From the NCBI RefSeq assembly GCF_014904705.1, contig NZ_JACZCQ010000014.1:1-64000 (forward strand): a stretch of DNA of 64,000 bases. Reading direction: 5' to 3'. The position numbers and the translations under genes are program-made. How positions within the stretch are numbered: position 1 is the stretch's first letter; each line of letters begins with the position of its first letter. Below are positions 3,878 to 55,046 of the stretch, piece after piece. The notes under the pieces were generated by a model. That model was not told where the DNA came from. It made no database searches and saw only the letters and a list, made by a program, of their open reading frames with translations. This DNA is from Nisaea sediminum. Lineage in GTDB: Bacteria; Pseudomonadota; Alphaproteobacteria; Thalassobaculales; Thalassobaculaceae.

Positions 3878-4644
3878 GCCTTTGCGATCTCCCGGATCGG
3901 AATCTCACGTGAGAGGGCCTGTTCCCGGATTTCGGCGATGGTCATCCGGTCGTAGTGCAGGATATCGGCCATCGCGATGGCGTCGGCATGGCCCTGTAGC
4001 ACCGCCTTTGCCAGATCGTCGACAGAACCCATGCCCCCGGAGGCGATGACCGGAATGCTGACACGGTCCGCAACTGTGCGGACCAAGTCGATGTCGAAGC
4101 CCTTCCGGGTGCCTTCCTGGTCGATTGAGGTCAGTAGCAGCTCTCCCGCGCCAAGCTCCTCGGCCTCGCGGATCCACTCGATCGCATCGCGCCCGGTATG
4201 TTCCCGCCCGTTGTCGGTATAGGCTTCCCAGCCACCATTGCCGAGGCGCTTCGCCTCCACGGAAAGAACCACCGCCTGGCTGCCGAACTCCTCGGCGATC
4301 TCGGTTAGCAGCGCCGGGCGGGCGATCGCCGCCGTGTTGATCGCTACCTTGTCCGCCCCCGAGCGGAGCAGCTTGCGGGCATCCTCGACGGAGCGCACCC
4401 CGCCGCCGACCGTGATCGGCACGAAAACGTGGCGCGCCGTATGTTCGAGGATATCGGTCAGGTTGTTGCGCCCGTAGAGGCTTGCGACCGAGTCCATGTA
4501 GATGATCTCGTCGATCCCCTGCTCGTAATAACGCTGGGCATAGAGCTGCGGGTCGCCGATGACCCGGAGACCCTCGAGGTGGATCCCCTTGATCAGGTTC
4601 GGGCCCTTGATGTCCAGGCGCGCAATGAGGCGGATGGGGCGCAC
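3874..4644 (-). CDS. hisF: HisF-type cyclase-like subunit of sugar amidotransferase
   Basis: A 256-residue (beta/alpha)8 protein of the HisF family, GTG start. In true imidazole-glycerol-phosphate synthase the barrel uses two aspartates, residues 11 and 130 in Thermotoga numbering. Here Asp11 is kept ('ARLDIKG') but position 130 is glutamate ('LSVEAKR'), and 'LTSIDQEG' is kept around residue 175. The change fits a barrel that channels ammonia from HisH to the sugar amidotransferase and no longer needs the full cyclase chemistry. It lies between the WbpG-type gene (25 bp upstream) and the HisH-like gene (4-bp overlap). The family call is firm; the reassigned role is inferred from context and the substitution. 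Confidence 0.88.
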   Translation of the reverse strand: MRPIRLIARLDIKGPNLIKGIHLEGLRVIGDPQLYAQRYYEQGIDEIIYMDSVASLYGRNNLTDILEHTARHVFVPITVGGGVRSVEDARKLLRSGADKVAINTAAIARPALLTEIAEEFGSQAVVLSVEAKRLGNGGWEAYTDNGREHTGRDAIEWIREAEELGAGELLLTSIDQEGTRKGFDIDLVRTVADRVSIPVIASGGMGSVDDLAKAVLQGHADAIAMADILHYDRMTIAEIREQALSREIPIREIAKA

Positions 4645-7846: not shown

Positions 7847-8875
7847 ATGACCCAAGGATCTGACGGCCGGCGCACCTTCGTCATCGCCGAAGCCGGTGTG
7901 AACCATAACGGCGATCTCGCGCTTGCCCGGCAACTGGTCGAGATCGCGGTCGATGCCGGCGCCGACGCGGTCAAGTTCCAGACCTTTTCCGCCGGGGGGC
8001 TGGTCGCGGCTAATGCGCCCATGGCGGAGTACCAGAAAACCAATACCGGCAGCGACCGCTCCCAGCTCGACATGCTGGCAGAGCTCGAGCTGTCCCTCGA
8101 GGCCTTCGCCGAACTCGCCGAGTTTGCGGCTGCCAAGGGCATCGAGTTCATGTCGACGGCCTTCGATCCGGAGAGCCTCGCGCATCTCCTCACGCTCGGC
8201 GTCGGACGCCTCAAGATCCCCTCCGGCGAAATCACCAATCCCGAACTTGTCCGCGCTATCGGTGAGGCCGGGCTTCCGGTGATCATGTCGACAGGCATGG
8301 CCGACCTGGAAGAAGTCGGTCAGGCGCTCTTCTGGCTGAAGGAGAGCGGAGCGGCGGATATCTCGCTGCTGCATTGCGTCAGCGATTATCCGGCGGACCC
8401 GGCTGACGCCAATCTCGCGGCGATGGATACCATGCGGACCGCCTTCGGTCTGCCGGTCGGCTGGTCCGACCATACGCTCGGCGATACCGTGACGATCGCC
8501 GCCGTCGCCCGGGGCGCGTCCATCGTGGAGAAGCATTTCACCATCGATACCTCCCTGCCGGGCCCGGATCACAGGGCCTCGCTCGATCCGGCCGCGCTGA
8601 AGCGGATGGTGGAGAATATCCGCATCACCGAATCCGCCATCGGCACGGGTCTGAAACAGCCGACCGCGGCGGAGCGCAAGGTGGCACTGGTCGCCCGCCG
8701 CAGCGTCGCCTCGCGGCGCGAGATCGCGGCGGGTGCGGAGATCGCCATGGCGGATCTCGCCTTCCTGCGCCCCGGAACCGGGATCCCTCCCGCGAAGGCG
8801 GAAATGATCGTCGGCAGACGCGCGGCGCGCACCATTCCGGCGGGGACAATCATCGAGCTTTCCGACCTGGCCTGA
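7847..8875 (+). CDS. neuB: N-acetylneuraminate/legionaminate synthase (NeuB/LegI family)
   Basis: A 342-residue PEP-condensing aldolase-like enzyme that joins phosphoenolpyruvate to an N-acetylmannosamine-type sugar to give a nine-carbon nonulosonic acid. Domains: TIM barrel at about residues 10-270 with 'IAEAGVNHNGD', 'DAVKFQTF', 'KIPSGEITN' and 'GWSDHTLG', then a C-terminal SAF (antifreeze-like) domain at about 285-342 with 'RSVASRREIAAGAEI' and 'IVGRRAARTIPAG'. All these are the expected NeuB blocks. With legB, legC and a NeuC-like epimerase 24 kb away, legionaminic acid is the likely product, but the sequence alone does not separate neuraminate from legionaminate synthases. Third gene of the SDR-neuD-neuB operon. 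Confidence 0.93.
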   Translation: MTQGSDGRRTFVIAEAGVNHNGDLALARQLVEIAVDAGADAVKFQTFSAGGLVAANAPMAEYQKTNTGSDRSQLDMLAELELSLEAFAELAEFAAAKGIEFMSTAFDPESLAHLLTLGVGRLKIPSGEITNPELVRAIGEAGLPVIMSTGMADLEEVGQALFWLKESGAADISLLHCVSDYPADPADANLAAMDTMRTAFGLPVGWSDHTLGDTVTIAAVARGASIVEKHFTIDTSLPGPDHRASLDPAALKRMVENIRITESAIGTGLKQPTAAERKVALVARRSVASRREIAAGAEIAMADLAFLRPGTGIPPAKAEMIVGRRAARTIPAGTIIELSDLA

Positions 8876-8920
8876 CCGGTAGCACTTGCGCCGGGCGCCG
8901 CGGCACCCTATTTCCCGCGG

Positions 8921-10138
8921 ATGCCGACGAAAACGCAGCCTCTTTCCGCCCCGTCCTCGATCCTCTCGGTTGAGGATTCCCTGACCGCGCGTGAGATCGC
9001 GGACTGGCTTCTGCAGGCATCACGCAATCAACTCGACCTCGGAACGCTCTGGGGCGAGTTCTGCCATCGCCTCGCGCTTGCAGGCGTGCCCGTCGAACGC
9101 GGCACCGCGATCCTGATGGCCCTGCATGCGATCAGGGAGGGCGTGCATTGCGAATGGCGCATGGGGCAGCAGACAGAGGTAAAACCCTGGCATTACGCGC
9201 CGGGCAATGCGCAACTCTATCAGGAGAGCCCGCTCCGTCTCGTGCACGAGACGAAAAGCTGGCTGCACCGTCGGATCGACGCGAAGAGCGCGGCCGAGTT
9301 CCCGATCCTGAAAGACCTGCTGGCGCTCGGCTACACCGACTATGTCTGCGTGCCGATCATCTTCGCCAACGGAATGCAGAACGCGCTCACCTTCGCCAGC
9401 CGGGAAGCGGAGGGCTTCTCGAAACGCGATCTTGCCCTGCTGCGCGAGGTCATGCCGACGGCGAAGATCGTGCTCGAGCTTATGACCATCTACCGCAGCA
9501 TGGACGATGTGCTGGCGATGTATGTCGGCCGCGAGCCGGGCGGACGCATTCTCGCGGGTGAGGTCCGGCGCGGCACCGTCAACCGAATGCAGGCGGCGAT
9601 CCTGGTCGCCGACATGCGCAACTACACGCTGCTTTCCGACCGGCTCGGCGATCTGCAGACGGTCGAGCTGCTCGACGCCTATTACGACTGCATCATTCCC
9701 CCGATCCTTGAGCGCGGCGGGGAGGTGCTGAAATTCACCGGTGACGGCGTGCTGGCGATCTTCCAGGACGCGAGCGGATGCGGTGAATGCCATATGTGCC
9801 GGGGCGGCGCGCTCGAGGCCGCGATCGAGGGCCAAAAGCGGCTCGCGGCGCTCGACACCTCACGCTGGGGCGAGGATGTCGAAGTGCGGGCCGGGATCGC
9901 CCTGCATCACGGCGACGTCGCCTTCGGCAATGTTGGCTCCGGCGAACGGCTCGACTTCACGGTGATCGGCAAGGACGTCAATCTCGCCGCCCGGCTCGGC
10001 GCCAAGTGCCGGACGCTGGACGAGCCGATCCTGATGTCTGAAAGCTTCGTGGAAGGCCTGGAGCAGGGCGCCCGCCATCTCGGCGATTTCGGCCTGCGCG
10101 GCCTGCCCGGAAACCACGCGATCTACGTGCCGGCCTGA
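8921..10138 (+). CDS. Class III adenylate cyclase with N-terminal sensor-like region
   Basis: A 405-residue soluble protein with a GAF-like N-terminal region (about 50-205) and a class III nucleotide cyclase domain (about 220-395). Metal-binding Asp231 ('VADMRNYT') and Asp275 ('KFTGDG'), adenine-selecting Lys271 and Asp345, and transition-state Asn354 and Arg358 ('KDVNLAARL') are all present, so it should make cAMP. Three cysteines at 287, 290 and 293 ('CGECHMC') form a CxxCxxC cluster inside the catalytic domain, unusual and possibly redox- or metal-sensing. No membrane segment. It lies 45 bp after neuB on the same strand and could be read through from it, but a functional link to glycan synthesis is not evident. 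Confidence 0.88.
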   Translation: MPTKTQPLSAPSSILSVEDSLTAREIADWLLQASRNQLDLGTLWGEFCHRLALAGVPVERGTAILMALHAIREGVHCEWRMGQQTEVKPWHYAPGNAQLYQESPLRLVHETKSWLHRRIDAKSAAEFPILKDLLALGYTDYVCVPIIFANGMQNALTFASREAEGFSKRDLALLREVMPTAKIVLELMTIYRSMDDVLAMYVGREPGGRILAGEVRRGTVNRMQAAILVADMRNYTLLSDRLGDLQTVELLDAYYDCIIPPILERGGEVLKFTGDGVLAIFQDASGCGECHMCRGGALEAAIEGQKRLAALDTSRWGEDVEVRAGIALHHGDVAFGNVGSGERLDFTVIGKDVNLAARLGAKCRTLDEPILMSESFVEGLEQGARHLGDFGLRGLPGNHAIYVPA

Positions 10139-10159
10139 GCCGGAACCGCTGTCTCTCGA

Positions 10160-10792
10160 TTAGAACTCGATCCCGGCCTGCGCCTTGAAGCCCGAGCGGA
10201 AGGGATGCTTGATCTGCGTCATCTCGGTGACGAGATGGGCGGCCTCGATCAGCTCTTCCTTGGCGTTGCGGCCGGTGACGATGACATGCAGGTCTGGGCG
10301 CTTGTTCCTGAGCGTCTCCAGCACCTCCTCCAGCGGCAGGTAATCGTAGCGCAGGACGATGTTGAGCTCGTCCAGCAGCACCATGTTGATCTTCGGGTCC
10401 GCCATCAGCTCCTTCGCCTGTTCCCAGGCGGCGCGGGCGGCGGCGATGTCGCGGTTGAGGTCCTGGGTGTCCCAGGTGAAACCCTCGCCCATGGTGCGGA
10501 TGAAGACCTGGTCGGCGAAGGCCTCGAGGATCTTGCGCTCGCCGGTTTCCCACTTGCCTTTGACGAACTGCACGACGCCGACATTCATGCCGTGGCCGAT
10601 GGCGCGGCAGACCATGCCGAAAGCGGCGGTGCTCTTGCCCTTGCCCTTTCCGGTATGGACGATCAGCAGCCCGCCGGTCTCGGTCTTGGTCGCCATGATC
10701 TTGTTCCGGGCGGCCTTCTTCTTCGCCATTTTCTCGGCGTGACGGGCGGCCTTTTCCGGATCGATCTCGCTGCCGGTGATGTCGTCGCTCAT
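10160..10792 (-). CDS. cobO: Cob(I)yrinic acid a,c-diamide adenosyltransferase
   Basis: A 210-residue CobO/BtuR enzyme that transfers the adenosyl group of ATP to the cobalt of corrinoids. The P-loop 'GKGKGKS' lies at 48-54, followed by 'VVQFVKGKWETGE', 'VLLDELN' and 'VIVTGRNA', all characteristic of CobO. The N-terminal 35 residues are lysine/alanine-rich and typically poorly conserved. Last gene of the cobW-cobN-cobO operon, 48 bp behind cobN, and so expected to be under the B12 riboswitch upstream of cobW. Confidence 0.95.
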   Translation of the reverse strand: MSDDITGSEIDPEKAARHAEKMAKKKAARNKIMATKTETGGLLIVHTGKGKGKSTAAFGMVCRAIGHGMNVGVVQFVKGKWETGERKILEAFADQVFIRTMGEGFTWDTQDLNRDIAAARAAWEQAKELMADPKINMVLLDELNIVLRYDYLPLEEVLETLRNKRPDLHVIVTGRNAKEELIEAAHLVTEMTQIKHPFRSGFKAQAGIEF

Positions 10793-10840
10793 GATCTCTC
10801 TCCCATGTCCCTCATCATGGCACCCCGGAACCCATCGGGG

Positions 10841-13800
10841 TCAACCGGCGAGCGCCGTCAATTCCCCGTGCACTGCGTTCCGGCGCGGGCGCCAGAGTCC
10901 GCGGTCGAGCGCTTCCTTCAGTCGCGCCGCCATCTCCTTCAGCGCCGCCGGATTGTGCCGCTCGAGAAATTCGCGCACTTCCGGATCGTCCAGATAGGCA
11001 TCGAACACGGCGTCGAAATGATGATCGCCGACGCAGCGCGCGGTGGCGGCGAAGGCGAACATGTAATCGACCGTCGCCGCCATCTCGAAGGCGCCCTTGT
11101 AACCGTGCCGCATCACGCCCGCGATCCATTTCGGGTTCACGACGCGCGCCCGCACCACCCGCGCGATCTCCTCGTCGAGCGAGCGGATGCGCGGGCTCTC
11201 GGGCCGCGAATGGTCGTTGTGATAGACCTTCGGCTGGCTGCCGGAGAGGTGCCGGATCGCGGCGGTGATGCCGCCCTCGAACTGGTAATAGTCGTCGCTG
11301 TCGAGCAGATCGTGCTCGCGGTTGTCCTGGTTGTGCAGGACCAGCTCCACATCCTTCAGCCGGGATTCGAAGAGCGCGTGCGCGGCCTCGCCCTCGGCGC
11401 CCTTGCCGTAGGCGTATCCACCCCAGGCGACATAGGCCTTCGCGAGATCCTCCTCGCTCTCCCAGAGCTGCTCGTCGATCATCGCCTGCAGGCCAGCCCC
11501 GTAGGCACCGGGCTTGGAGCCGAACACCCGGTAGCCGGCCTGCTTCTCGGCGGCTTCGCGGCTGGCGCCGGCCTCCTCAAAGGCGGCCGCATCGGCGCGG
11601 TAGCGGGCGGCGAGCGGGTTCTCGGCCGGCGTCTCGTCGAGCTTCGCGACGGCGCGGGCGGCACTGTCGAGCAGGTCGATCTGGAACGGGAAGGCGTCGC
11701 GGAAGAAGCCTGAGACGCGGAAGGTGACATCGACGCGCGGGCGGTCGAGTACCGAAGTCGGCAGGATCTCGAAGCCGGTGACGCGGCCGCTGGCGACGTC
11801 CCATTCCGGCCGGACGCCCATCAGCGCTAGGGCCTGGGCGATATCGTCGCCGCCGGTGCGCATGTTCGCTGTGCCCCAGGCGGAAAGGGCGAGCCTTTCG
11901 GGCCAGGTGCCGTTCTCCTGCCGGTAGCGTTCCAGCAGCAGCGCGGCGGATTTCCAGCCGAGCTGCCAGGCCGCCGGGGTCGGAACTGCGCGGGTATCGA
12001 CGGAATAGAAGTTGCGGCCGGTCGGCAGCACGTCCGGCCGCCCCCGCGTCGGCGCGCCGGAGGAGCCGGGGGCGACGAAGCGGCCGGCGAGGCCCTTCAG
12101 GAGGCCGTCCAGTTCGGCATCGCCGCAGCTCGTGACGGTCGGGCGGAGATGCGCGTCGACCGCGTCCAGCACGGCGCGCGTGCGCTCCCAGGCCGGCTCC
12201 GGGTCGGCGTTCCCGGCGACAAGCGCGTGGGCCAGCAGTTCGAGCCGCTCGACCGTATCGCCGTGACTGCGCCAGGGGGACTCGTCGATCGCAGCGAGCG
12301 CTTCCGGCCTGTCGCCGGCCCAGTCCTCGGCCATGTCGGCTGCCAGCGGGTCGAACGGTTCGCCGGCCACCTCGAGTCCGAGATCGCGGGCGAGCGCGCG
12401 CTGCAGCGAGGCGTCGCCGCCTTCGCCCTGTGCCCGCGGCACGCGAACCAGCGCCGTCAGCAGATCGTCCAGCAGCCGCCCTTCCGGTGCGACGCCGAAG
12501 ATGTGCAGCCCGTCGCGGATCTGCAGTTCCTTCAGCTCGCAGAGATAGCCGTCGAGCCGGTTCAGCTTTTCCGCCGCGTCGTCGGTGGCAATGAGGCCGA
12601 GATCCTTGTCGAGGCCGATGGCGGCCATCTTCTCCAGGATCTGCTCCGAGAGCAGCTTCAGGCGGCGCGGATCGACCCCGGCGGCCTGGTAATATTCGTC
12701 GACCAGCCCCTCCAGCTCCTTCAGCGGGCCGTAGCTCTCGGCGCGGGTCAGCGGCGGGGTCAGGTGGTCGACGATGACGGCGGCCGACCGGCGCTTCGCC
12801 TGCGTGCCCTCGCCCGGATCGTTGACGATGAAGGGATAGAGATGCGGCACCGGGCCGAAGACGGCTTCCGGGTAGCACTCTTCCGAAAGCGCCAGCGCCT
12901 TGCCCGGCAGCCATTCCATGTTGCCATGCTTGCCCATATGGATGACGGCATGGGCGCCGAATTCGTGGCGCAGCCAGATGTAGAAGGCGAGGTAGCCGTG
13001 CGGCGGAACTAGGTCCGGGGAGTGGTAGGTCTCGGTCGGATCGATATTGTAACCGCGCGCCGGCTGGATCCCGACGACCACATTGCCGAGTGTGAGCACG
13101 GAGAGCCGGAAGGTGTCGCCGACGACGAAGGGATCGCTCTCAGGCGCTCCCCAGCGATCTTCGATATCGCTCCGGACCTTCTCGGGTAGGCTCGCGTAAG
13201 CCGCCTTGTAGGCATCGAGAGAGAGCGTGGCGCCCCCTTTGCGGCCGGCGCGGTCGGAGAGATCGTTGGTCGGGCCGGAGGACATGCGGCCGATCAGGGC
13301 GTCGCCGTTGATCGGCATGTCGCGGACGCCGTAACCGGCATCGCTCATGGCGCGGAGCACGTTGATGGTTCCCGCCGGCGTGTCGAGCCCGACGCCATTG
13401 CCGAGCCGGCCGTCCCGGTTCGGATAGTTCGCCAGCACCAGCGCGATCCGGCGCTCTTTGGCCGTCGTCGCACGCAGCTTCGCCCAGCCCGCCGCGAGCT
13501 TCGCGGTGAAGGCGATGCGGTCCGGGACCGGGGCGTAGGTGACGATGGAACATTCCGTCGCCGCGTCCCGCCGCGCCTCGGCCTTGAAGGAGACGGCACG
13601 GGCGAGCACCCGTCCGTCCACCTCCGGGAGGGCCACGTTCATGGCGATGTCGCGGGCGGAGAGACCGGCGGTGGACGTTTCCCAGCCCTCGCGGTTGCCG
13701 CCGGAGAAGATCACCTGCAGCACGGTGCAGTCGGCCGGATCGAACGGTGTTGCGCCGCCGGGCGCGCCCGGTTTGGAGACGGCGAAGCCGGTGGCGTTCA

Positions 13801-17221: not shown

Positions 17222-17869
17222 TTAACGAGTGGTGCCGATTCTTTCCAAATTGGTTACCGTTGCCGTAAGCGTCAGCGTGACGCGCTCCCCGTCCCCGAAA
17301 TAAGGATTGGTGCGTATATGCAGCCAGCTAGGCAATACGATCAGCTGACCGCTCTTGGGGGTGATCATCACGGAACGCCCCACCGTATCGATCGGCAGGC
17401 CGGCAAGTTCCGCCTGGGCGCGCGGATCGTCGATCTCGATGGTGCCGCTCTCCGGCGCGTCCTCGTTCGGCGCGTCGCCGGCATCGATGCTGTAGATCAT
17501 TGTCAGATGGTGGCCTGGCGAAAGATGACGCTTCTCGTAGCCGCCATAGCGTAGAACGCTGACGTATCCGGACAACTCGGTCTCGAAGCTGCTTGCACCG
17601 CCTGCGATCTGCGGAATGACCGCTTGCAGGGCGCCGGTCGCGGTCTGCCGGATCGTGTCAATGCCGTGATCCGCCCAGTTGAAAAGGTTACCGCTCGATC
17701 TCCAGCCGCCGATGACGCCTGCCGCGCCGGGTTCGCCGGAGGACTCGCGGGTCAGGGCGGCGGCTTTCAGCGCTTCGTTGAGCGGCTCCGCGCCATGGAT
17801 CGAGAACATGAAAAGGCGGGTTGGAAAGACCTCGATAATGTCCGTGCGTGAATCAAACTTGAGCTCCAT
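17222..17869 (-). CDS. Putative 2OG-Fe(II) oxygenase (2OG-FeII_Oxy_5-like)
   Basis: A 215-residue protein that resembles the small 2OG-Fe(II) oxygenase group beginning 'VFPTRLFMF', with the middle block 'HLSPGHHLTMIYSIDAGD', then 'SGTIEIDDPRA' and 'LIVLPSWLHIRTNPY', where His184 would be the distal iron ligand and Arg196 the 2OG-binding arginine. The proximal ligands are less clear, likely His121 with an acidic partner. The ATG at 17869 follows GAGGGGG; a longer reading to 17989 is possible but not supported by family length. Likely co-transcribed with the methyltransferase 59 bp downstream. Confidence 0.7.
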   Translation of the reverse strand: MELKFDSRTDIIEVFPTRLFMFSIHGAEPLNEALKAAALTRESSGEPGAAGVIGGWRSSGNLFNWADHGIDTIRQTATGALQAVIPQIAGGASSFETELSGYVSVLRYGGYEKRHLSPGHHLTMIYSIDAGDAPNEDAPESGTIEIDDPRAQAELAGLPIDTVGRSVMITPKSGQLIVLPSWLHIRTNPYFGDGERVTLTLTATVTNLERIGTTR

Positions 17870-18165
17870 AGGCCGGTCCCCCTCGGCATGCCATGCGGTG
17901 CCAGTATGATTAGCATGGGCCAGCGCGACGGGGACAAACTCTGCAATGTCGCAGATTTGTGGAGTCGGCAATTTCGGCGCGGGCTTCACAATGCTGCGGC
18001 GATTGCGATCTTCGGCGCTGCGGCGAAGAAATTCGATCGCTATAGTCTGGGCTGGTTCGCTCCGATCGGGTTGATGGACGGTTGTCTTAACGTTGGTGTC
18101 GGGTATTTCGGTGTCTTCAATAATAAGAATGGTAAATATCGCACCTAGTCTGGGAGTTTGAAGAT
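17870..18165. other. Divergent intergenic region, no gene
   Basis: Nearly 300 bp between the 2OG oxygenase gene and the CgeB-like gene, transcribed away from each other. The half nearest 18160 is AT-richer than its neighbours, which suits promoters, but I could not fix hexamers. No conserved coding frame is seen. Confidence 0.45.
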
Positions 18166-19392: not shown

Positions 19393-20583
19393 TCAGACGG
19401 GTTTCGCGAATGCAAGGAAGAGGGTGGCAAGGGGCACTCCGCCCTCCTCGCGCATTGAGCCGCGACGGGCTTCAAGAAGAGTTAGTCCCGCTGCCCGGGC
19501 GGCCTGTTGGAGATAGTCAAGGCTGTGGCTGTGGGCGCCGTCGAGGCCGATGCCGATCCCGTCTTCATCCGCTCCGGTTGGTTCATGCGCCGTCATCAGA
19601 AGTCCCCCGCCGGGCTGCAGCCTGGCGCTCACGGCACGGAAAAACGGCTCCAGGTCGCCGATGTAAGAGCTGACGTCGGCTGCGATCGCGACATCGTAGA
19701 GCGCGTCTTCCCGCTCCAGCACTGAGACGGCGTCGCCCGCCAAGAGCCGATGATAGATCCTCTTCTCCTCGGCGACGCGCAGCATCTCGGAAGAAATGTC
19801 GATCCCGGTCATTTCCGCGCAATAGGGGCGGATTGCGGCGCCGGTAAGGCCGGTTCCGCAGCCCAGATCGAGGGCACACGCGGCCTTGCGCTTTTCCGAG
19901 AGGATCCCGGAGGCAAGGCCGAGAAGCCGAAGCGTCTCGGGGCCCGAGTATTTGAGCCGCCCGGTCAGGTGAGCGTCGAAACTCTTCGCATAGCCGTCGA
20001 ACACCCTTTTGACATAGGTGCTGCTGTAGGCCTGGCGCACCGGCGCGACGCCGTGGCGCGCCAGATCTCGGCGCACCCCCATCGGGTCTTCCGGGGCGAT
20101 GCACAGGGTTGCCCGGTAAAGCCGGACGGCTTCCCCGGCGCGTCCGGCCAGATCGAGGAACTGGCCGAGAATAAAGGTCGCATCGAGATTCCCCGGGTCC
20201 GAAATCCGGAGCCGCCGCAGGATCCGGAACCCGCGTTTCCGCCTGTCGTTGCCCAAGGCCCTGAGGGCGCTCATCAGCGCGGCCGGGATGTGCAGCGGGT
20301 CGAGTACAAGCAGGCGCTCCGGGGCCGGCGTTGGGTCGCTTTCGCCCGCACCCAGATCGTTGAGATAGCCCGGGACATCTGGATCGAGCGTGATGGCCCG
20401 CCTGAGGGCGGTGGAGGGGTCCTGACCGGCCGCGCGCTGCACGGTGGCGAGGTTCGACCAGTGCAGGGAGTCGCCGGCCGCATCGAGTGCCTTGCGCTGC
20501 AGGATCGGGAGCGCGGCTTCCCAGTCGCCGGAGCCGACGGCGTCGTGCAGGATATCCACCTCGGTCCCGGGATCCTCAGCCAT
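19393..20583 (-). CDS. TPR-like repeat protein fused to SAM-dependent methyltransferase
   Basis: A 396-residue protein. Residues 1 to about 190 are helical repeats of the TPR kind ('DWEAALPILQRKALDAAG', 'NLDATFILGQFLDLAGRAG'), then 'YVKRVFDGYAKSFDAHL' leads into a class I methyltransferase with motif I 'ALDLGCGTGLTGAAI' and 'MTGIDISSEMLRVAEE'. This arrangement occurs in methyltransferases that act on proteins or surface polymers. The ATG at 20583 is chosen because further upstream the frame runs over the cytidylyltransferase gene. It is the last gene of a minus-strand operon starting at 24112, 56 bp after the CMP-sugar synthetase. The substrate is unknown. Confidence 0.8.
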   Translation of the reverse strand: MAEDPGTEVDILHDAVGSGDWEAALPILQRKALDAAGDSLHWSNLATVQRAAGQDPSTALRRAITLDPDVPGYLNDLGAGESDPTPAPERLLVLDPLHIPAALMSALRALGNDRRKRGFRILRRLRISDPGNLDATFILGQFLDLAGRAGEAVRLYRATLCIAPEDPMGVRRDLARHGVAPVRQAYSSTYVKRVFDGYAKSFDAHLTGRLKYSGPETLRLLGLASGILSEKRKAACALDLGCGTGLTGAAIRPYCAEMTGIDISSEMLRVAEEKRIYHRLLAGDAVSVLEREDALYDVAIAADVSSYIGDLEPFFRAVSARLQPGGGLLMTAHEPTGADEDGIGIGLDGAHSHSLDYLQQAARAAGLTLLEARRGSMREEGGVPLATLFLAFAKPV

Positions 20584-20639
20584 GACCGCATCGTAGAGGA
20601 GGCCGGTCCTCTCAGGAAGGACAGGTCGTAAAGGGCGGT

Positions 20640-21353
20640 TCAGCGCCCGCCCTGCTTCGCGAAATATTCCAGCGCCTTCTCCGCCATGTAGAGGTCGAAA
20701 GCGTCGTGGATGTCGATGCCGGAGGCGAAATCGTCGATCTCCAGGATGTCGACCTTCATGCCGGTGCGCTTGCCGGCGCGGATCAGGTCTGCGCGGATCG
20801 CGGAGGCGAGACCTGTATCCTCGCGGAACAGGGGCTTGCGGGTCTGGCGCGGTCCGTAGATCGCCATCCAGTCGAACACCCGCTCCCATTCGCCGGCCTC
20901 GTTGCGGGACCAGAAATTCTTGTGCGTCTTGTTGGCGACGAAGACGGTCTCGAGGCTGTCGTCCGCCTTAAGCCGCGTCACGCATTCGGCGATCCATTCC
21001 GGCTTGCGGAAGATGTCGGTCGGCTGCAGGAAGACGACGATGCCGAACGGGCCGTCGAGCGCCTCGGCGCGCTCCAGCGCGTCCTTCAGCACCGGCTCGG
21101 TCGGGGTCAGGTCCTCGGCGAGCGTTCCCTCGCGCAGGAACGGGCACCAGGCGCCCGCGGCGACGGCCGCGTCCCGGATCTCCTCGCTGTCGGTGGTTAC
21201 CAGCACCCGGTCGCAGGCCCCGGAGGCGAGCGCGTGCTCGACGGAATGGGCGATCAGCGGCTTGCCGCCGATCGGCTTCACGTTCTTGCCCGGCAGGCCC
21301 TTGGAGCCGCCGCGGGCGGGCAGGATGGCGAGGACGCGGTCAGACTTGCTCAT
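20640..21353 (-). CDS. neuA: CMP-nonulosonate (acylneuraminate) cytidylyltransferase
   Basis: A 237-residue NeuA/LegF/PseF-type enzyme that would activate a nonulosonic acid with CTP. The CTP-binding signature 'PARGGSKGLPGKN' is at about 12-24, followed by 'VLVTTDSEEIRD' and 'VVFLQPTDIFR'. Complete and unbroken. Its ATG overlaps the stop of the upstream paralogue at 21350 by four bases, which implies coupled translation with that degenerate cytidylyltransferase. The substrate (neuraminic, legionaminic or pseudaminic acid) is not readable, but with legB/legC/neuC in the window a legionaminic acid is most likely. Confidence 0.92.
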   Translation of the reverse strand: MSKSDRVLAILPARGGSKGLPGKNVKPIGGKPLIAHSVEHALASGACDRVLVTTDSEEIRDAAVAAGAWCPFLREGTLAEDLTPTEPVLKDALERAEALDGPFGIVVFLQPTDIFRKPEWIAECVTRLKADDSLETVFVANKTHKNFWSRNEAGEWERVFDWMAIYGPRQTRKPLFREDTGLASAIRADLIRAGKRTGMKVDILEIDDFASGIDIHDAFDLYMAEKALEYFAKQGGR

Positions 21354-22012
21354 GCGATGGAATTCCTGAACTCGGTGAAACGGTCCGCGACCATCTCGGC
21401 CATGGCGAGGCTCATGTCGTCGCGGATATCGACAAGGGCCCAGAACTGGTCGACCACCTCGAAGCCGACCGCGTCGCCGAGCCGGCGGCCTTCGCGGATC
21501 AGCTCCGGACGGGTGGCGAGCGCGAGGCCGACGACCTCCTGGAAATAGGTCGAGCTGCGGCGGTCGCCGCCGGGGCCGAGGGCCTGGATCGTCTTGTCCG
21601 GATCGAGGCGCCAGAGGCTGGCGTCGAACTGGCGGACGCAGACCACGCTGTCGAGATGCTCGCGCGCGGCGAGGTTCTCCGCCGTGCGCCGGATCAGGCC
21701 GCGCGGGCGGAAGGGATGGGTCGGCTCGATAACCACGATCTCGTCCGCCGGGAAGGCGTCGAGCACGTCGACCAGGGCGTCGGTGTAGGATTCGGCCGTG
21801 CGGTCGTGGATGGTGATGCGGTCCGCATAGGGTGCCGCCTCGGCCTTCACCGCGTTGTCGTCCGCGGTCAGCACGATGCGCGCGTCCGGCAGATCCTCGA
21901 GCGCGGCCTCGATGGTGCGCGCCAGGCTCGAGGTGCCGTCGAGCGGTTTCACGATCCGCGGCGTGGAACTCGCGCCGGAATAGACCGGGATGATGATCAG
22001 CGTGTCACTCAT
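21350..22012 (-). CDS. Degenerate cytidylyltransferase-like protein
   Basis: A 220-residue protein with the fold pattern of acylneuraminate cytidylyltransferases ('ARIVLTADDNAVKAEA', 'IVVIEPTHPFRPR', 'FWALVDIRDDMSLA'), but the CTP-binding loop is replaced: where NeuA has PARGGSKxxPxKN this protein reads 'PVYSGASSTPRIVKPLDG', lacking the key Arg, Gly-Ser and Lys residues. It is therefore unlikely to be a conventional CTP transferase. It could be a regulatory or structural partner of the intact enzyme, whose gene overlaps its 3' end, or act on another nucleotide. It also overlaps the upstream GT2 gene by four bases (ATGA). Confidence 0.75.
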   Translation of the reverse strand: MSDTLIIIPVYSGASSTPRIVKPLDGTSSLARTIEAALEDLPDARIVLTADDNAVKAEAAPYADRITIHDRTAESYTDALVDVLDAFPADEIVVIEPTHPFRPRGLIRRTAENLAAREHLDSVVCVRQFDASLWRLDPDKTIQALGPGGDRRSSTYFQEVVGLALATRPELIREGRRLGDAVGFEVVDQFWALVDIRDDMSLAMAEMVADRFTEFRNSIA

Positions 22013-22689
22013 GGCGCACTCGTCCGGATATAGTCGATGACCTCGGCGACGCGCTTGGCGCGGCCCTCGTCGCGGCCCTGGTGGATGCCGTGATGGTGAT
22101 AGACTCGGAGCCCCGGCTCGTAGAGGATCTCGTGGCCGAGCGCGATCATGCGCTTGCCCCATTCCCGGTCCTCGACGCCGCGGATCTCCTCGTCGAACGG
22201 ATGCTCGTCCCAGATCGACTTGCGGATGCCCGAATTGGCGTTGTGGAAAAAGTAGTCCCGGCGCTGGCGCACCCGCTCGTCGCGGAAGGTGGTCCAGAGG
22301 TCGCGGCGGTCGACCGCGCTGGTATCCGGCAGCGGCTCCTGGCGGCCGTAGATGCCGCAGAGCTTCGGATCGCCGTTCGGCCCGAGATGGGCGAGCAAAT
22401 AGTCGGCCCAGAGCTCGTCCACTGGCACGCAGTGCGAGGAGATCAGCGCGACCGTGTCGTATTTCGCCGCCGCGATGCCGATATTCAGCGCCCGCCCGTA
22501 GGAGAACTCCTCGCGGCTGATATATTTGATGTTCACGCCGTAGGCCTCGGCGATCGGCAGCGTGTCGTCGGTCGAGTCGTTGTCGACCAGGATGACGTCG
22601 ATATCCTTCACCCGCTGGTGCTTCAGCGCGGTCAGGCAGCGGCCGATCCAGGCGGCCTCGTTCTTGGCCCGGAGCACGACGCTGATCAT
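22009..22689 (-). CDS. Family 2 glycosyltransferase
   Basis: A 226-residue GT-A enzyme. 'ISVVLRAKNEAAWIGRCL' is the nucleotide-sugar-binding start, 'VILVDNDSTDDTLPIAE' the conserved second block, and 'GVEDREWGKRMI' near the C-terminus is the usual ED-containing acceptor/base segment. The ATG at 22689 follows GGAGG and overlaps the SAF gene's stop (ATGA); a longer start four codons upstream has no advantage. Transfers an unknown sugar, in an operon with CMP-nonulosonate synthetase, so a nonulosonate or its carrier is plausible. Confidence 0.88.
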   Translation of the reverse strand: MISVVLRAKNEAAWIGRCLTALKHQRVKDIDVILVDNDSTDDTLPIAEAYGVNIKYISREEFSYGRALNIGIAAAKYDTVALISSHCVPVDELWADYLLAHLGPNGDPKLCGIYGRQEPLPDTSAVDRRDLWTTFRDERVRQRRDYFFHNANSGIRKSIWDEHPFDEEIRGVEDREWGKRMIALGHEILYEPGLRVYHHHGIHQGRDEGRAKRVAEVIDYIRTSAP

Positions 22690-23228
22690 GACTTCCTCCA
22701 ATCGTCCTCGTCCACGACCCCGAAATCGAGGGCCGCGCCCTCGCCGAGATCGTAGAGCGCCTTCTTGCCGAGGATCGTTTCCCTGAGGCTGGCGCAGATA
22801 CCCGGCCCGCCCTTCTCCTCGGCGATATCGGCCGCCTCGAGCACCTTGCCGAGCGGGATCGGCCGCGCCGCCTTCAGGGTCGGCCGGGCGAGGCGGTGCA
22901 GCTCAAGCCGCGCGACCGGCGTCGGCGCGAAGAGGATCGGGCCCTTGAGGTCGCCCGCCTCCTCCAGCACCCGGAGCCGCTCCAGCGCGTCGAGATCGTG
23001 CACCAGATAGGCCGCCCGCGTGCCCGCCTTCAGCAGCGGGGCCTTGGTCAGGTGGTCGGCTGGAATGACGATGTCGAAATCGCCCGCGACCTGTTCCAGC
23101 TCCTCGTGCCGGATGGCGTCGAGATGGATCGGCCAGGCTTCTGCTTCCACCGTGTCCGCATGGTCGCCGAGCAGGATCACGCCGTGCTCGAAGGGATGTT
23201 CGTGTTCGCCGAGAGGCCGGATCTTCAT
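22686..23228 (-). CDS. Stand-alone SAF-domain protein resembling the NeuB C-terminal domain
   Basis: A 180-residue protein. Residues about 118-172 match a SAF (antifreeze-like) domain, the part that closes NeuB over its neighbour's active site: 'KAARPIPLGKVLEAADI' and 'ILGKKALYDLGEGAAL' correspond to the NeuB tail in the gene at 7847. The N-terminal 110 residues ('IVIPADHLTKAPLLKAG' and 'YLVHDLDALERLRVL') are not recognised and contain no TIM-barrel. There is no catalytic NeuB domain in the neighbouring frames, so this is not a broken neuB. It may serve as a binding or regulatory partner. ATG start, 8 bp behind the AroE-like gene, and four-base overlap with the GT2 gene downstream. Confidence 0.65.
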   Translation of the reverse strand: MKIRPLGEHEHPFEHGVILLGDHADTVEAEAWPIHLDAIRHEELEQVAGDFDIVIPADHLTKAPLLKAGTRAAYLVHDLDALERLRVLEEAGDLKGPILFAPTPVARLELHRLARPTLKAARPIPLGKVLEAADIAEEKGGPGICASLRETILGKKALYDLGEGAALDFGVVDEDDWRKS

Positions 23229-23236
23229 CGCGCCAC

Positions 23237-24112
23237 TTACCCCGCGTTCCGCATGGCGTCGCGGACCCGGTCGATGGTCAGCGCGCCCGGGTTGGCTAGT
23301 CGGAAGGCGATCACCGCCTGGTCGAGATTCATGCCGAGCCCGTTCCGCGTCTTCAGCCCGCGCGCCGCAGCACGGGAGAGCAGCTCGGTTTCCAGCGGCT
23401 GGTAGATGATGTCATAGACCAGCGCGTCCGACGGCAGCGCCGCCAGCAGCGCGTCGGCCTCGTCGCCGAGCGGTGTGCCGGTCGGGCCGTCCTGGTAACC
23501 CGCCGTGGTGCAGTTCACCAGCAGGCTGCACTCCGAGAGCAACTCCGCCGTCAGCGGCAGGGGTACGGAGGAGACTTTCTCGCCGAGCCGGATCGCCGCT
23601 TCCTTCGCCTTGGCTTCGGTGCGGTTGGCGACGACCAGTTCCTTCACCGCGCCGGCGAGATAGGCCGCGACCGCGATCCCGGCGCCGCCGAGCCCGATCA
23701 GCACCGCCTTGCGGGAGGCGAGATCCGGCAGCGCGTCCGCGATCTGCGAGAGCGCGCCCGCGCCGTCCGTGTTGGCGCCGACGAGATCGTCGCCGTCACG
23801 GTAGATCGTGTTCACCGCGCCGATCCTTTCGGCCTCCGGCTCCAGCCGGTCGAGCAGGGCCGCGATCGCCTGCTTGTGCGGTACCGCGACCGCACCGCCG
23901 ATATAGCGCCTGTCGGCCTTCAGCGCGGCGACGAGCCCCGCGAGGTGGTCCGGCGTCACGTCCATCGGCACCATCGCCGCGTCGATCCCGCCGGCCTTGA
24001 AGGCGGCGTTCCAGAGCAGCGGCGAGCGCGCGCCCCTGGACGGCGTCAGCCCGAGGATCGCGGCGTATTTCGAGGTCGTGATGTTCGGGTCGTTGTCGAG
24101 AAAGTCCTGCAC
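23237..24112 (-). CDS. Shikimate dehydrogenase-like protein (AroE family, altered substrate loop)
   Basis: A 291-residue NADP-binding dehydrogenase of the AroE family. The family's catalytic Lys and Asp are kept (Lys80 in 'VAVPHK', Asp116 in 'GANTDG') with Asn101, and the nucleotide loop is 'LIGLGGAGIAVAAYLAG' at about 138-154. However the shikimate-binding SxSP motif is altered to 'ARSPLLWN' (28-35): one of the two carboxylate-binding serines is Ala, and the usual SPxxHN His is Trp. It may use a different substrate, or be a YdiB/AroE-type paralogue. GTG start, no good ribosome-binding site seen. First gene of the operon down to 19393, eight bp before the SAF gene; a role in sugar metabolism is inferred from position only. 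Confidence 0.78.
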   Translation of the reverse strand: MQDFLDNDPNITTSKYAAILGLTPSRGARSPLLWNAAFKAGGIDAAMVPMDVTPDHLAGLVAALKADRRYIGGAVAVPHKQAIAALLDRLEPEAERIGAVNTIYRDGDDLVGANTDGAGALSQIADALPDLASRKAVLIGLGGAGIAVAAYLAGAVKELVVANRTEAKAKEAAIRLGEKVSSVPLPLTAELLSECSLLVNCTTAGYQDGPTGTPLGDEADALLAALPSDALVYDIIYQPLETELLSRAAARGLKTRNGLGMNLDQAVIAFRLANPGALTIDRVRDAMRNAG

Positions 24113-31497: not shown

Positions 31498-32496
31498 ATG
31501 ACGGGTCCGGTTCTGGTGACCGGCGCCGATGGTTTCATCGGCTCGCATCTGGTTGAAACTCTGCTGGAAGAGGGCCGCGAGGTCCGGGCGCTCGCGCTCT
31601 ACAATTCCTTCGGTTCCACCGGCTGGCTGGAGACGATCCCCAGGGAGTTGCGCGGCGGGCTGGAGATCGTTCTCGGCGACATCCGCGACCGCAGCTGCGT
31701 CGTCGGCGCCGCCAAAGGGACCTCGGCGATCCTGCATCTTGCCGCCCTGATCGCGATTCCCTACTCCTACAGGGCGCCCGAAAGCTACATAGACACGAAC
31801 GTGACCGGTACGCTGAACGTGCTGGAAGCCGCCCGGCTCTGGGAAACGGGGCGGGTGGTGTGCACCTCGACCAGCGAGATCTACGGCACCGCGCAGTTCG
31901 TGCCGATCACCGAGGAGCATCCGGTCAATCCGCAGAGCCCCTATGCGGCCTCGAAGGCGGCGGCGGACCATCTGGCGCTGTCCTACGAGAAAAGCTTCGG
32001 TCTGCCGGTGGCGGTGCTCCGGCCCTTCAACACCTACGGTCCGCGCCAGTCGGCCCGCGCGGTGATCCCGACCATCATCACCCAGCTCGCCCGGGGAGCG
32101 GAGGAGATCCGACTCGGGGCGGTCTCGCCGACCCGCGATTTCACCTTCGTCCGCGACACGGCCGCCGGTTTCGTCGCGGCGATGCGGGCGGACAGGGCGA
32201 TCGGCCGGGTCACGAATATCGGCAGCGGCTTCGAGATCTCCGTCGGCGAGACGGCGGCGGCAATCGGCCGGGTCATGGGGCGGAATGTCGAGATCGTCTC
32301 GGACGAGGAACGTCTCCGGCCCGAGGCCAGCGAGGTCGAGCGTCTGTTCGCGGGTGTGGAGGTCGCGGAGGACATTCTCGGCTGGGCGCCGGCGCATGGT
32401 GGCCGCGAGGGCTTCGACAAGGGGCTGGAGAGGACTATCGAGTGGTTCACCGAACCCGCCAATCTCGCGCGCTATCCCGAAGGGTACCAGGTGTGA
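31498..32496 (+). CDS. legB: UDP-N-acetylglucosamine 4,6-dehydratase, LegB-type
   Basis: A 332-residue extended SDR enzyme that in the legionaminic acid route removes water between C4 and C6 of the sugar nucleotide to give the 4-keto-6-deoxy intermediate. NAD loop 'GADGFIGS' at 9-16, active-site Thr/Ser in 'TSTSEIYG' around 125, Tyr149 and Lys153 in 'YAASK'. The blocks 'RPFNTYGPRQSARAVIPT' and 'RDFTFVRDTA' set it with the LegB group, apart from PseB. GG(G)ACAGGT upstream of the ATG. Its stop overlaps the ATG of the aminotransferase, forming a legB-legC-neuC block. Confidence 0.92.
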   Translation: MTGPVLVTGADGFIGSHLVETLLEEGREVRALALYNSFGSTGWLETIPRELRGGLEIVLGDIRDRSCVVGAAKGTSAILHLAALIAIPYSYRAPESYIDTNVTGTLNVLEAARLWETGRVVCTSTSEIYGTAQFVPITEEHPVNPQSPYAASKAAADHLALSYEKSFGLPVAVLRPFNTYGPRQSARAVIPTIITQLARGAEEIRLGAVSPTRDFTFVRDTAAGFVAAMRADRAIGRVTNIGSGFEISVGETAAAIGRVMGRNVEIVSDEERLRPEASEVERLFAGVEVAEDILGWAPAHGGREGFDKGLERTIEWFTEPANLARYPEGYQV

Positions 32497-33680
32497 TGAC
32501 GGCCGCATTGAAGAATACCAGCTACGATGAGGACGCGCTTGTCGCCGCCGTGACGTCGGTTCTGCCCGGGAGCCGCCCGCTGCCGCTGCACGAGCCGGAA
32601 TTCATCGGCCGCGAGAAGGAATATCTGGCCGATTGCATCGATACCGGCTGGGTCTCCTCGGTCGGCTCCTATGTCGACAGGTTCGAGACGCTCGTGGCGG
32701 AGAAGTCCGGGACGAGGTTCGGCGTTGCCTGCGTCAGCGGGACGGCGGCCCTGCATATCGCTTTGGTCGCCGCCGGGGTGTCGCGGGACGACGAGGTGCT
32801 GGTGCAGGCCCTGACCTTCGTGGCGTCGGCCAATGCGGTCTATCATGCTGGCGCTCTGCCGCATTTCGTCGACAGCGAGTACGCGACGCTCGGTCTCGAT
32901 CCGGACGCGCTCGACGCCTATCTCGGCGAGATCGCGGAACTGCGGGACGGCGCGGCCTGGAACCGTCTGACCGGACGCCGGATAAGTGCCGTCGTGCCGA
33001 TGCATGTCTTCGGTCACCCGGTCCGGATGGAGCGGCTCGCAGAGGTAGCCGAGCGCTGGCATATCATTGTTGTCGAGGATGCGGCCGAGAGCCTCGGTTC
33101 CAGCCGAAACGGTCGTCCCATGGGGAGTTTCGGCAAACTCGCCGCGGTCAGCTTCAACGGCAACAAGACGATCACGACCGGCGGCGGCGGCGCCGTCGTC
33201 ACCGATGACGAAGCTCTCGCGAAGCACCTCAAGCATCTGACGACGACGGCAAAACTGCCGCATCGCTGGGCCTTCGACCACGACGAGGTGGCCTACAATT
33301 ACCGGCTGCCCAACCTGAATGCCGCGCTCGGCTGTGCGCAGTTCGAGATGCTGGACCGGTTCCTCGCGGAGAAAAGGGCGCTGGCCGAGGCGTACGAACG
33401 GGCGCTGACCGGCATTCCGGGAGTGGAGTTTTTCCGCGAGCCGGACGGGTGCCGCGGGAATTATTGGCTGAATGCGGTTCTTGTTCCCGACCGCGCCGCG
33501 CGGGACAGCCTGCTCGAGCGGCTGAACGGCGAGGGTATCCATGCCCGCCCGTGCTGGACACCGATGCATGAGCTGCCCTTCAACCGGGATTGCCCGCGGG
33601 GCCCACTCGGCGTGACCGAAGCTCTGGTGGACCGGATCGTCAATCTTCCGAGCAGCGCCAAACTCGGCCGCAGAGTGTAG
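32496..33680 (+). CDS. legC: PLP-dependent sugar aminotransferase, LegC-type
   Basis: A 394-residue DegT/DnrJ/EryC1-family aminotransferase that would put the amino group on C4 of the LegB product, with glutamate as donor. The PLP lysine is Lys224 in 'SFNGNKTITTGGGG' and the cofactor aspartate is Asp195 in 'VVEDAAESLGS'. The N-terminal helix and 'HEPEFIGREKEYL' are marks of the LegC subgroup. ATG at 32496 overlaps the legB stop by one base, and this start gives the right family length; the frame runs on upstream through legB but without homology. Followed six bp later by the NeuC-like epimerase. Confidence 0.93.
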   Translation: MTAALKNTSYDEDALVAAVTSVLPGSRPLPLHEPEFIGREKEYLADCIDTGWVSSVGSYVDRFETLVAEKSGTRFGVACVSGTAALHIALVAAGVSRDDEVLVQALTFVASANAVYHAGALPHFVDSEYATLGLDPDALDAYLGEIAELRDGAAWNRLTGRRISAVVPMHVFGHPVRMERLAEVAERWHIIVVEDAAESLGSSRNGRPMGSFGKLAAVSFNGNKTITTGGGGAVVTDDEALAKHLKHLTTTAKLPHRWAFDHDEVAYNYRLPNLNAALGCAQFEMLDRFLAEKRALAEAYERALTGIPGVEFFREPDGCRGNYWLNAVLVPDRAARDSLLERLNGEGIHARPCWTPMHELPFNRDCPRGPLGVTEALVDRIVNLPSSAKLGRRV

Positions 33681-33686
33681 CGCGTC

Positions 33687-34835
33687 ATGGCGGAACGTAT
33701 CGCCGGCGTGACCGGAAGCCGCGCTGATTTCGGAATCCAGAGACCGGTGCTCGACGCGCTCCGCGCGGCGCCGGACTTCGAGCTGGATCTCTATGTGACC
33801 GGCATGCATCTCTCGCCCCGCTTCGGGCATACGGTGGACGAAGTCGAGGCGGCGGGTTTCGAGATTGCGGGAAAGATCGATTGCGACGCTTCCGGTGGCA
33901 GCGATCTCGAGGTCGCGCATTCGACCAGCGCGGCGCTTGCCGGATTTGCCGACGCGTGGGCCGGACGGCGTCCCGATCTGGTGCTGCTGCTCGGTGACCG
34001 CTTCGAGACCTTCGCCGCCGCGTCGGCGGCCTATCTGCTCAATATTCCGATCGCGCATATGATCGGCGGGGACGTCACCTCCGGATCGCTCGACGATGGA
34101 TTGCGCCACGCGATCTCGAAATTCTCGCATCTCCATTTCACGACCAACGAGCCCGCACGGGAGCGCCTGATCCGGATGGGTGAGCATCCGGACACGATCT
34201 TCACCACCGGAACACCGGCGCTCGACGCGATCCTGTCGCGCGACCTGCTCCCGCGGGAGCAGGTGGAACGCCGGGTCGGCGCCCCCCTCGGGGCGCGTTT
34301 TCTCGTCGCGACATTCCACCCCGCGACAGCGGACAAGGGGGCGCCCTCCGAACAGTTCGCGGAGCTGCTTGCCGCGTTCGAGGATTTGCCCGCGGACATG
34401 ACCGCGCTCGTCACCTACGCCAACGCGGACTCGGGAGGAGCGGAACTCAACCGGCTCCTGGAGGTAGCGGAAGAACGTTCGGACCGGATCATTGCCCGCG
34501 ACTCGCTCGGGCAGGAGCTCTATTTCTCCGCCCTGAAGCACGCCGTCATGGTTGTCGGCAATTCTTCGAGCGGCCTTTACGAGGCTCCGTCGTTTGGGAT
34601 CCCGACGGTGAATATCGGGTGCCGGCAGGATGGCCGCCTCAAGGCGCCGTCGGTCATCGATTGTTCGCCCGAGCGCAGCGCGATCACAGCCGCTATGGTC
34701 AAGGCAGTCGAAATGGATTGTTCGGGGACGGTTAACCCATATGGCGACGGTCGCGCGACGGAACGTGTGCTATCGGCTCTCAGAAAGTTCATGCCGTTCG
34801 AAAAGCTCGGCATGAAACGGTTCTTCGACGCTTGA
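33687..34835 (+). CDS. neuC: UDP-N-acetyl-sugar 2-epimerase, hydrolysing (NeuC/LegG family)
   Basis: A 382-residue GT-B-fold enzyme that releases UDP and inverts C2 of a UDP-HexNAc, here most likely the diacetamido-trideoxy sugar made by LegB, LegC and an acetyltransferase, giving the substrate of NeuB. 'GVTGSRADFGIQRPVL', 'LLGDRFETFAAASAA', 'HMIGGDVTSGSLDDGLRH' and 'GNSSSGLYEAPSFGIPTVNIG' are conserved in NeuC and LegG. Complete. Third gene of legB-legC-neuC, six bp after legC. Assignment as LegG rather than a GlcNAc epimerase rests on the neighbours. Confidence 0.92.
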   Translation: MAERIAGVTGSRADFGIQRPVLDALRAAPDFELDLYVTGMHLSPRFGHTVDEVEAAGFEIAGKIDCDASGGSDLEVAHSTSAALAGFADAWAGRRPDLVLLLGDRFETFAAASAAYLLNIPIAHMIGGDVTSGSLDDGLRHAISKFSHLHFTTNEPARERLIRMGEHPDTIFTTGTPALDAILSRDLLPREQVERRVGAPLGARFLVATFHPATADKGAPSEQFAELLAAFEDLPADMTALVTYANADSGGAELNRLLEVAEERSDRIIARDSLGQELYFSALKHAVMVVGNSSSGLYEAPSFGIPTVNIGCRQDGRLKAPSVIDCSPERSAITAAMVKAVEMDCSGTVNPYGDGRATERVLSALRKFMPFEKLGMKRFFDA

Positions 34836-53072: not shown

Positions 53073-53084
53073 TGAAAGCTCCTA

Positions 53085-54848: not shown

Positions 54849-54883
54849 AAAGCTCTTGCCCGTACAAATTGATCTATCGCTGG

Positions 54884-54889
54884 AGTATA
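54884..54889 (-). promoter_or_regulatory. Candidate extended -10 promoter for the T1SS operon
   Basis: On the minus strand TGCTATACT contains a TATACT -10 box with the extended TGn, 36 bases before the ATG of the ABC transporter. No good -35 box is seen at the right distance. The gap 54849-55046 is divergent, so promoters for both operons must lie here. Confidence 0.35.
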
Positions 54890-55046
54890 GCAGAACAAAG
54901 CGACGCCATTCGAAATGAGAGATGCTCCAAAATTCACTGTATGCCACAGGAACCGAGCTTGCATCGCAACGTCGGGGAATTCATAAGCGCGTACGGTAAG
55001 AGTATCAATGATAATTCGTAGCCTGTGACAACATGGTTCAGTGCCA

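Follow-up and report, generated by a model that had tools for sequence, protein, structure and literature searches.

The subject of this analysis is a gene cassette of Nisaea sediminum (genus Nisaea) located within positions 1-64,000 of contig NZ_JACZCQ010000014.1 (C14), a 64-kb stretch referred to below as the window, whose proteins were compared with Pfam and NCBIfam profiles. An earlier note on this DNA had joined six genes into one coupled operon, running from a relative of shikimate dehydrogenase (AroE-like) through a SAF-domain protein, a family 2 glycosyltransferase (GT2) and two cytidylyltransferase-type proteins (CTa and CTb) to a methyltransferase with tetratricopeptide repeats (TPR). 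All six are present, all on the minus strand, and the profiles back their family names. Two partner genes, encoding a Gfo/Idh/MocA oxidoreductase (Gfo) and a relative of 3-deoxy-D-arabino-heptulosonate 7-phosphate (DAHP) synthase (DAHPS-like), lie elsewhere in the window on the plus strand. The relevant features are as follows.

23237-24112, minus strand: AroE-like dehydrogenase, 291 amino acids, GTG start; Shikimate_dh_N (PF08501) 68 bits, Shikimate_DH (PF01488) 37 bits
22686-23228, minus strand: SAF protein, with an N-terminal alpha/beta part and a C-terminal NeuB/antifreeze-like SAF domain (about residues 113-176); PF08666 23.2 bits against a cut-off of 21
22009-22689, minus strand: GT2 glycosyltransferase; PF00535 77 bits
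21350-22012, minus strand: CTa, a degenerate protein of cytidylyltransferase fold, a weak relative that barely matches cytidylyltransferases
20640-21353, minus strand: CTb, an intact CMP-sugar-acid synthetase of NeuA/KdsB type (CMP, cytidine monophosphate); CTP_transf_3 (PF02348) 86 bits
41189-42319, plus strand: Gfo/Idh/MocA oxidoreductase (Pfam), orthologue of the gene found in compact operons
63605-64000, running on to about 64522 past the window edge, plus strand: DAHP-synthase-like gene with a GPN/KPL signature
19393-20583, minus strand: TPR-methyltransferase (Pfam), ATG at 20583; a lineage-specific accessory, not core
17222-17989, minus strand: 2-oxoglutarate (2OG)-Fe(II) oxygenase, accessory; PF13759 26.7 bits, slightly under the cut-off of 27

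The AroE-like and SAF genes are separated by 8 bases, ATGA overlaps occur at the SAF/GT2, GT2/CTa and CTa/CTb junctions, and a gap of 56 bases follows CTb before the TPR-methyltransferase gene. The ATG at 22689, which overlaps the SAF stop codon, is favoured as the GT2 start, a TTG at 22701 being less likely. The three four-base overlaps and short gaps described previously are confirmed in the sequence, and the overlaps, with ATG or GTG as start codon, reappear at almost all related loci and are therefore not due to chance.

The order AroE-SAF-GT2-CTa-CTb is intact in 16 related genomes, not counting that of N. sediminum itself. A search for the SAF protein recovered it from 17 of 61 relatives, every one in the same family, and a full-length copy occurs in just 3 genomes of a class-wide sample (n=385). 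The slowest-changing members are GT2, with 77-82% identity between genera, and CTb, with 71-80%; in one genome of the same genus (G004), the cassette genes are mostly more than 90% identical to the N. sediminum copies. The proposed six-gene unit is consequently narrowed to the five genes from AroE-like to CTb, as orthologues of the TPR-methyltransferase are confined to two other Nisaea genomes and genus g6, are absent from most relatives and were not detected in the congener G002. Homologues of the 2OG-Fe(II) oxygenase come after CTb in many relatives. Across the family, the AroE-like and SAF genes are bound to the CMP-sugar synthetase and GT2 genes rather than apart from them, so that the refuting condition named in the earlier note was decided in favour of a dedicated pathway. 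In one related locus (L033 of G009, 10414-11433), a transposase-like open reading frame (ORF), judged by eye, is inserted on the opposite strand between SAF and GT2. On contig C4 of another genome (G024; loci L043 and L133), a second copy of the cassette has decayed: in-frame stops interrupt its DAHPS-like gene, and its AroE, GT2 and CTa frames are broken.

Altered enzymes of the cassette

The AroE-like protein misses all NCBIfam shikimate dehydrogenase cut-offs (best 191.6 against 295), and its pocket carries the motifs PSRGARSP and GGAVAVPHK. In E. coli shikimate dehydrogenase numbering, Ser14 is replaced by Ala in all 29 AroE-like sequences, the canonical Ser being present in 56 of 59 others. 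At site 59, the canonical Asn (54/59) gives way to Ala in 27 of the 29 and to Ala or Ser overall. The remaining positions examined (Lys65, Asn86, Asp102 and the C-terminal Gln) are invariant in the AroE-like and canonical sets alike, so that the catalytic pair Lys65/Asp102 is kept, together with the NAD(P) domain (PF01488). Within these alignments, the Ser14-to-Ala change is a clean marker of the AroE-like family. The Asn59 change was rejected as a mark of the pathway alone, since 5 of the 59 other members of the family likewise have Ala or Ser at this site. Each of the seven pathway genomes tested carries one or two further genes of the shikimate dehydrogenase family. In N. sediminum, one such gene passes an NCBIfam shikimate dehydrogenase cut-off (335 against 235), and the genome also carries a class II DAHP synthase, which makes it unlikely that the cassette is the housekeeping shikimate pathway.

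Outside the cassette-bearing Nisaea, most relatives have the DAHPS-like gene immediately upstream of AroE, and the two genes are also adjacent in loci L110, L124-L127, L192 and L205-L207. The N. sediminum orthologue is found on the same contig (C14:63602-64510), where the window ends on the right and at a distance of 39 kb from the cassette, and a spacing of about 40 kb is repeated in three other cassette-bearing Nisaea genomes. The gene is rare, being present in 6 of the 385 genomes of the class sample and in one more of the phylum sample (n=398). The DAHPS-like proteins form one clade in the tree (support 100/100) and fall in a separate score band, with full-length members at 525 or more and canonical DAHP synthases or KdsA at 286 or less; motifs separate them likewise. 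In this clade, GPN and KPL[ST]FPYR replace the metal-ligand GPC and the KPR[TS] motif, GPC and KPR being present in 43 canonical sequences. The best NCBIfam names are DAHP synthase for this protein and shikimate dehydrogenase for the AroE-like one, yet the DAHPS-like protein stays under the DAHP synthase cut-offs, with 266.3 against 267.75 (TIGR01361) and 302.7 against 335 (PRK08673). It also fails the tests for 3-deoxy-D-manno-octulosonate 8-phosphate (KDO8P) synthase, lacking the KANR motif and scoring 77 bits against 314. In DAHP synthase, the Arg of KPR contributes to binding the phosphate group of erythrose 4-phosphate. The absence of this Arg suggests that the DAHPS-like enzyme has another acceptor, perhaps an unphosphorylated one, which fits the finding that no phosphatase gene was noticed in the compact operons inspected by eye. 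In KDO8P synthase, Asn replacing the metal-binding Cys marks the metal-independent form (PMC3052366); by this analogy, the DAHPS-like enzyme is predicted to be metal-independent.

In structure comparison (Z 9.4-11.4), residues 113-176 of the SAF protein (AlphaFold model, predicted local distance difference test (pLDDT) 87) resemble type III antifreeze proteins and the C-terminal domain of PseI/NeuB; the N-terminal part of the protein falls outside the range of structural matches. An interpretation of SAF as a truncated NeuB was rejected because the TIM barrel is absent and the likeness to NeuB/PseI is confined to those residues. Of the two proteins read as cytidylyltransferases in the earlier note, CTb fully retains that standing, with the NeuA motifs ARGGSKGL, KN, TDIFR, RQ and ID-H-D invariant in 14 sequences. 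For CTa, the fold is upheld by a match to CMP-Kdo/NeuA synthetases (model pLDDT 73), but not the activity: the CTP-binding motif ARGGSKG (CTP, cytidine triphosphate) is absent from every member aligned, so that CTa is probably not a second active CMP-transferase. It is probably a non-catalytic, donor-binding partner of GT2.

Compact forms in distant lineages

Compact loci of more remote lineages, namely Pelagibacteraceae, SAR324 and further alphaproteobacteria, were found by scanning genome contigs with an AroE alignment and by profile searches; those of SAR324 and Pelagibacteraceae come from metagenome or single-cell assemblies. In two Pelagibacteraceae contigs and in the genomes G140 and G347, the genes run in one direction in the order CTb, fused GT2 and CTa, Gfo/Idh/MocA, DAHPS-like and AroE-like, with one additional gene between CTb and GT2 in G140. 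SAR324 has the order Gfo, fused GT2-CTa, DAHPS, AroE, and G011 the order Gfo, DAHPS, AroE, GT2. The Gfo/Idh/MocA gene belongs to the operon in L125, L126, L192, L205 and L206, and GT2 is fused to CTa in L125, L126, L205 and L206. Pfam scores above cut-off confirm a cytidylyltransferase-type domain fused to GT2 in SAR11, SAR324 and G140; the C-terminal half of the G011 GT2 protein is too divergent for scoring. N. nitritireducens has DAHPS-AroE-CTb plus Gfo, and SAF is absent. As the SAF protein is absent from the distant compact forms, it is a lineage-specific part, and the core consists of Gfo, DAHPS-like, AroE-like, CTb and GT2/CTa. In locus L207 of G423, a gene of the 6-phosphogluconolactonase family lies within a few genes of a DAHPS-AroE pair (8434-10240), and the role of this pair may differ.

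LegB-like, NeuC-like and NeuB genes are found in the same window, outside the conserved unit. Of 22 genomes with pathway genes, 21 have NeuB, which never falls within the unit, and in the cassette-bearing genome G035 (97% complete) a NeuB search returns only the DAHPS-like gene, as a weak match. The two pathways are therefore separable. The earlier idea of a variant nonulosonate pathway holds insofar as the AroE-like and SAF genes are tied to a CMP-sugar synthetase and GT2; it fails as a NeuB-type branch, the linked enzyme that condenses phosphoenolpyruvate (PEP) being a DAHP synthase relative. The NeuB-based set itself (NeuB, LegB-like, NeuC-like and a PseF-like cytidylyltransferase) is scattered over the island at 7847-8875, 31498-34835 and 46373-47068.

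A proposed pathway and its alternatives

Many surface glycans of bacteria carry ulosonic acids as caps and, to our knowledge, the described routes to these acids are built on NeuB-type or KdsA-type synthases. The cassette is, with reasonable probability, the main part of a dedicated, undescribed pathway for making a CMP-activated 3-deoxy-2-ulosonic acid and attaching it to a surface glycan. In such a pathway, a sugar would be oxidised by the Gfo/Idh/MocA enzyme, and the DAHPS-like enzyme would form a 3-deoxy-2-keto acid by condensing PEP and a probably unphosphorylated aldose. The AroE-like enzyme would then reduce or oxidise one ring hydroxyl with NAD(P), setting the final stereochemistry, after which CTb would join the acid to CMP and GT2 would transfer it together with CTa, probably its donor-binding module. 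The SAF protein may cap or regulate the synthase, like the SAF domain in NeuB, and the 2OG oxygenase and methyltransferase may decorate the sugar. The data show the identity of the genes, their linkage, the altered residues, the separability from NeuB and the GT2-CTa fusion; the chemical steps with their sequence, the acceptor and the part played by SAF are inferred. A wider claim is put forward more tentatively, as one that may be correct but falls somewhat short of probable: that, in addition to the NeuB and KdsA routes, evolution has produced a third one to CMP-activated 3-deoxy-ulosonic acids, combining a DAHPS-derived, probably metal-independent synthase with an AroE-derived sugar dehydrogenase and giving a so-far-unseen glycan sugar in marine bacteria, including some Pelagibacteraceae.

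Several observations weigh against this dedicated pathway. G423, which belongs to another class, has the DAHPS-AroE pair by itself, with no obvious glycan genes close by, and the Magnetovibrio pair (L124) adjoins neither CTb nor GT2. Neither the distant lineages nor N. nitritireducens have the SAF protein, and its position matching the catalytic Arg314 of NeuB (about residue 139, an approximate mapping from alignment ranges) is not conserved, which leaves a simple role as a lid in trans unproven. Characterised GT2 enzymes, as far as we know, use nucleoside-diphosphate sugars and not CMP-sugars, so that GT2 here may act on another sugar. The isolated pairs in G423 and L124 also suit a modified aminoshikimate-like route, in which the Gfo-, DAHPS- and AroE-like enzymes would make a shikimate- or cyclitol-like carboxylate that is put on a glycan, with the CMP step serving another sugar; the same enzyme trio operates in the rifamycin precursor pathway (PMC8788734). 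This route is nevertheless unlikely, given that Ser14 and Asn59 are lost from the AroE-like pocket and that CTb, the most conserved enzyme beside GT2, is built into the compact operons. In addition, no homologue of dehydroquinate synthase or dehydratase was noticed by eye among the ORFs of L126, L205 and L206, where no profile search was made.

A slightly less likely explanation still takes up the idea of the earlier note in the form of a legionaminic-type nonulosonate branch of the same island in which the AroE-like and SAF proteins modify the NeuB product. The LegB, NeuC and NeuB genes of the window, the near-universal presence of NeuB in pathway genomes and the NeuB/PseI-like SAF domain speak for it; they are countered by the position of NeuB, LegB and NeuC outside the conserved unit, by the cassette without NeuB in G035 and by a linked synthase of DAHPS type. 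It is very improbable that these are duplicates of aromatic-biosynthesis genes that serve ordinary housekeeping and adjoin glycan genes by chance. Overall homology and the best NCBIfam names point that way, but all family cut-offs are missed, the active-site changes are invariant, another shikimate dehydrogenase and a class II DAHP synthase exist in the genome, and the linkage to CTb and GT2 recurs in distant lineages.

If the dedicated pathway is accepted, no single acceptor is indicated by its lipopolysaccharide (LPS), flagellin and RTX contexts. In Pelagibacteraceae, which according to one paper (PMC11898729) lack flagella and have a single O-chain cluster, the acceptor could be LPS. N. nitritireducens (L110) and G011 (L192) have flagellin or flagellin-like genes close to those of the pathway; a flagellin-specific island is unsupported in N. 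sediminum, whose flagellin genes sit on other contigs. In the window, an RTX repeat protein with 14 nonapeptide stretches is encoded at 44690-46300, followed by long TPR genes and apparent type I secretion genes (51684-54947), and this RTX protein is a possible glycosylated secreted protein. Further genes of the island include two similar adjoining genes (257-1657 and 1861-3204), the first without a Pfam match, and a HisH/HisF-type pair (GATase, His_biosynth; 3236-4644) among glycan genes, as in rare-sugar amidotransferase steps.

No description of the gene combination was found in the literature covered, which comprised open-licence papers only, so that a prior account elsewhere is possible; the words shikimate, heptulosonate and cytidylyltransferase are all absent from the Pelagibacterales O-chain paper (PMC11898729). 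A conserved glycan operon appears to have taken up two enzymes from aromatic amino-acid biosynthesis together, with their active sites altered in parallel. The gene set can be recognised by the signatures GPN...KPL[ST]FPYR and PSxGARSP, and its reconstitution needs five proteins. This small size makes the sugar, and the unusual pairing of GT2 with a pseudo-cytidylyltransferase, directly testable.

Comparison with known systems

With the NeuB-type pathway of sialic, legionaminic and pseudaminic acid, the cassette shares a PEP-condensing synthase, a CMP-sugar-acid synthetase, a SAF domain and a surface-glycan setting. It differs in having a synthase of the DAHPS I-beta lineage, SAF as a protein of its own, and AroE-like and Gfo/Idh/MocA enzymes where the NeuC/LegB/LegC steps would be. 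The Kdo pathway (KdsA-KdsC-KdsB) likewise combines a 3-deoxy-ulosonate with CMP activation, and metal-independent KdsA has the same Asn in place of the metal-binding Cys (PMC3052366), whereas the cassette has KPL[ST]FPYR instead of KANR, adds AroE-like and Gfo enzymes, and contains no phosphatase noticed by eye.

The nearest analogy in enzyme content is the aminoshikimate pathway (rifGHIKLMN), with its trio of oxidoreductase, DAHPS-like and AroE-like enzymes, represented in the rifamycin precursor route by the oxidoreductase RifL, the aminoDAHP synthase RifH and the aminoshikimate dehydrogenase RifI (PMC8788734). Unlike that route, the cassette includes a CMP synthetase and GT2, carries other active-site residues and has no cyclising enzyme noticed by eye. 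For the AroE-like enzyme, a further comparison is offered by 5-ketofructose reductase (PDB 7cok), a degradative sugar reductase by name and related at the family level only (E 1e-23), which is, judging by its molecule name, an AroE-family enzyme acting on a keto-sugar.

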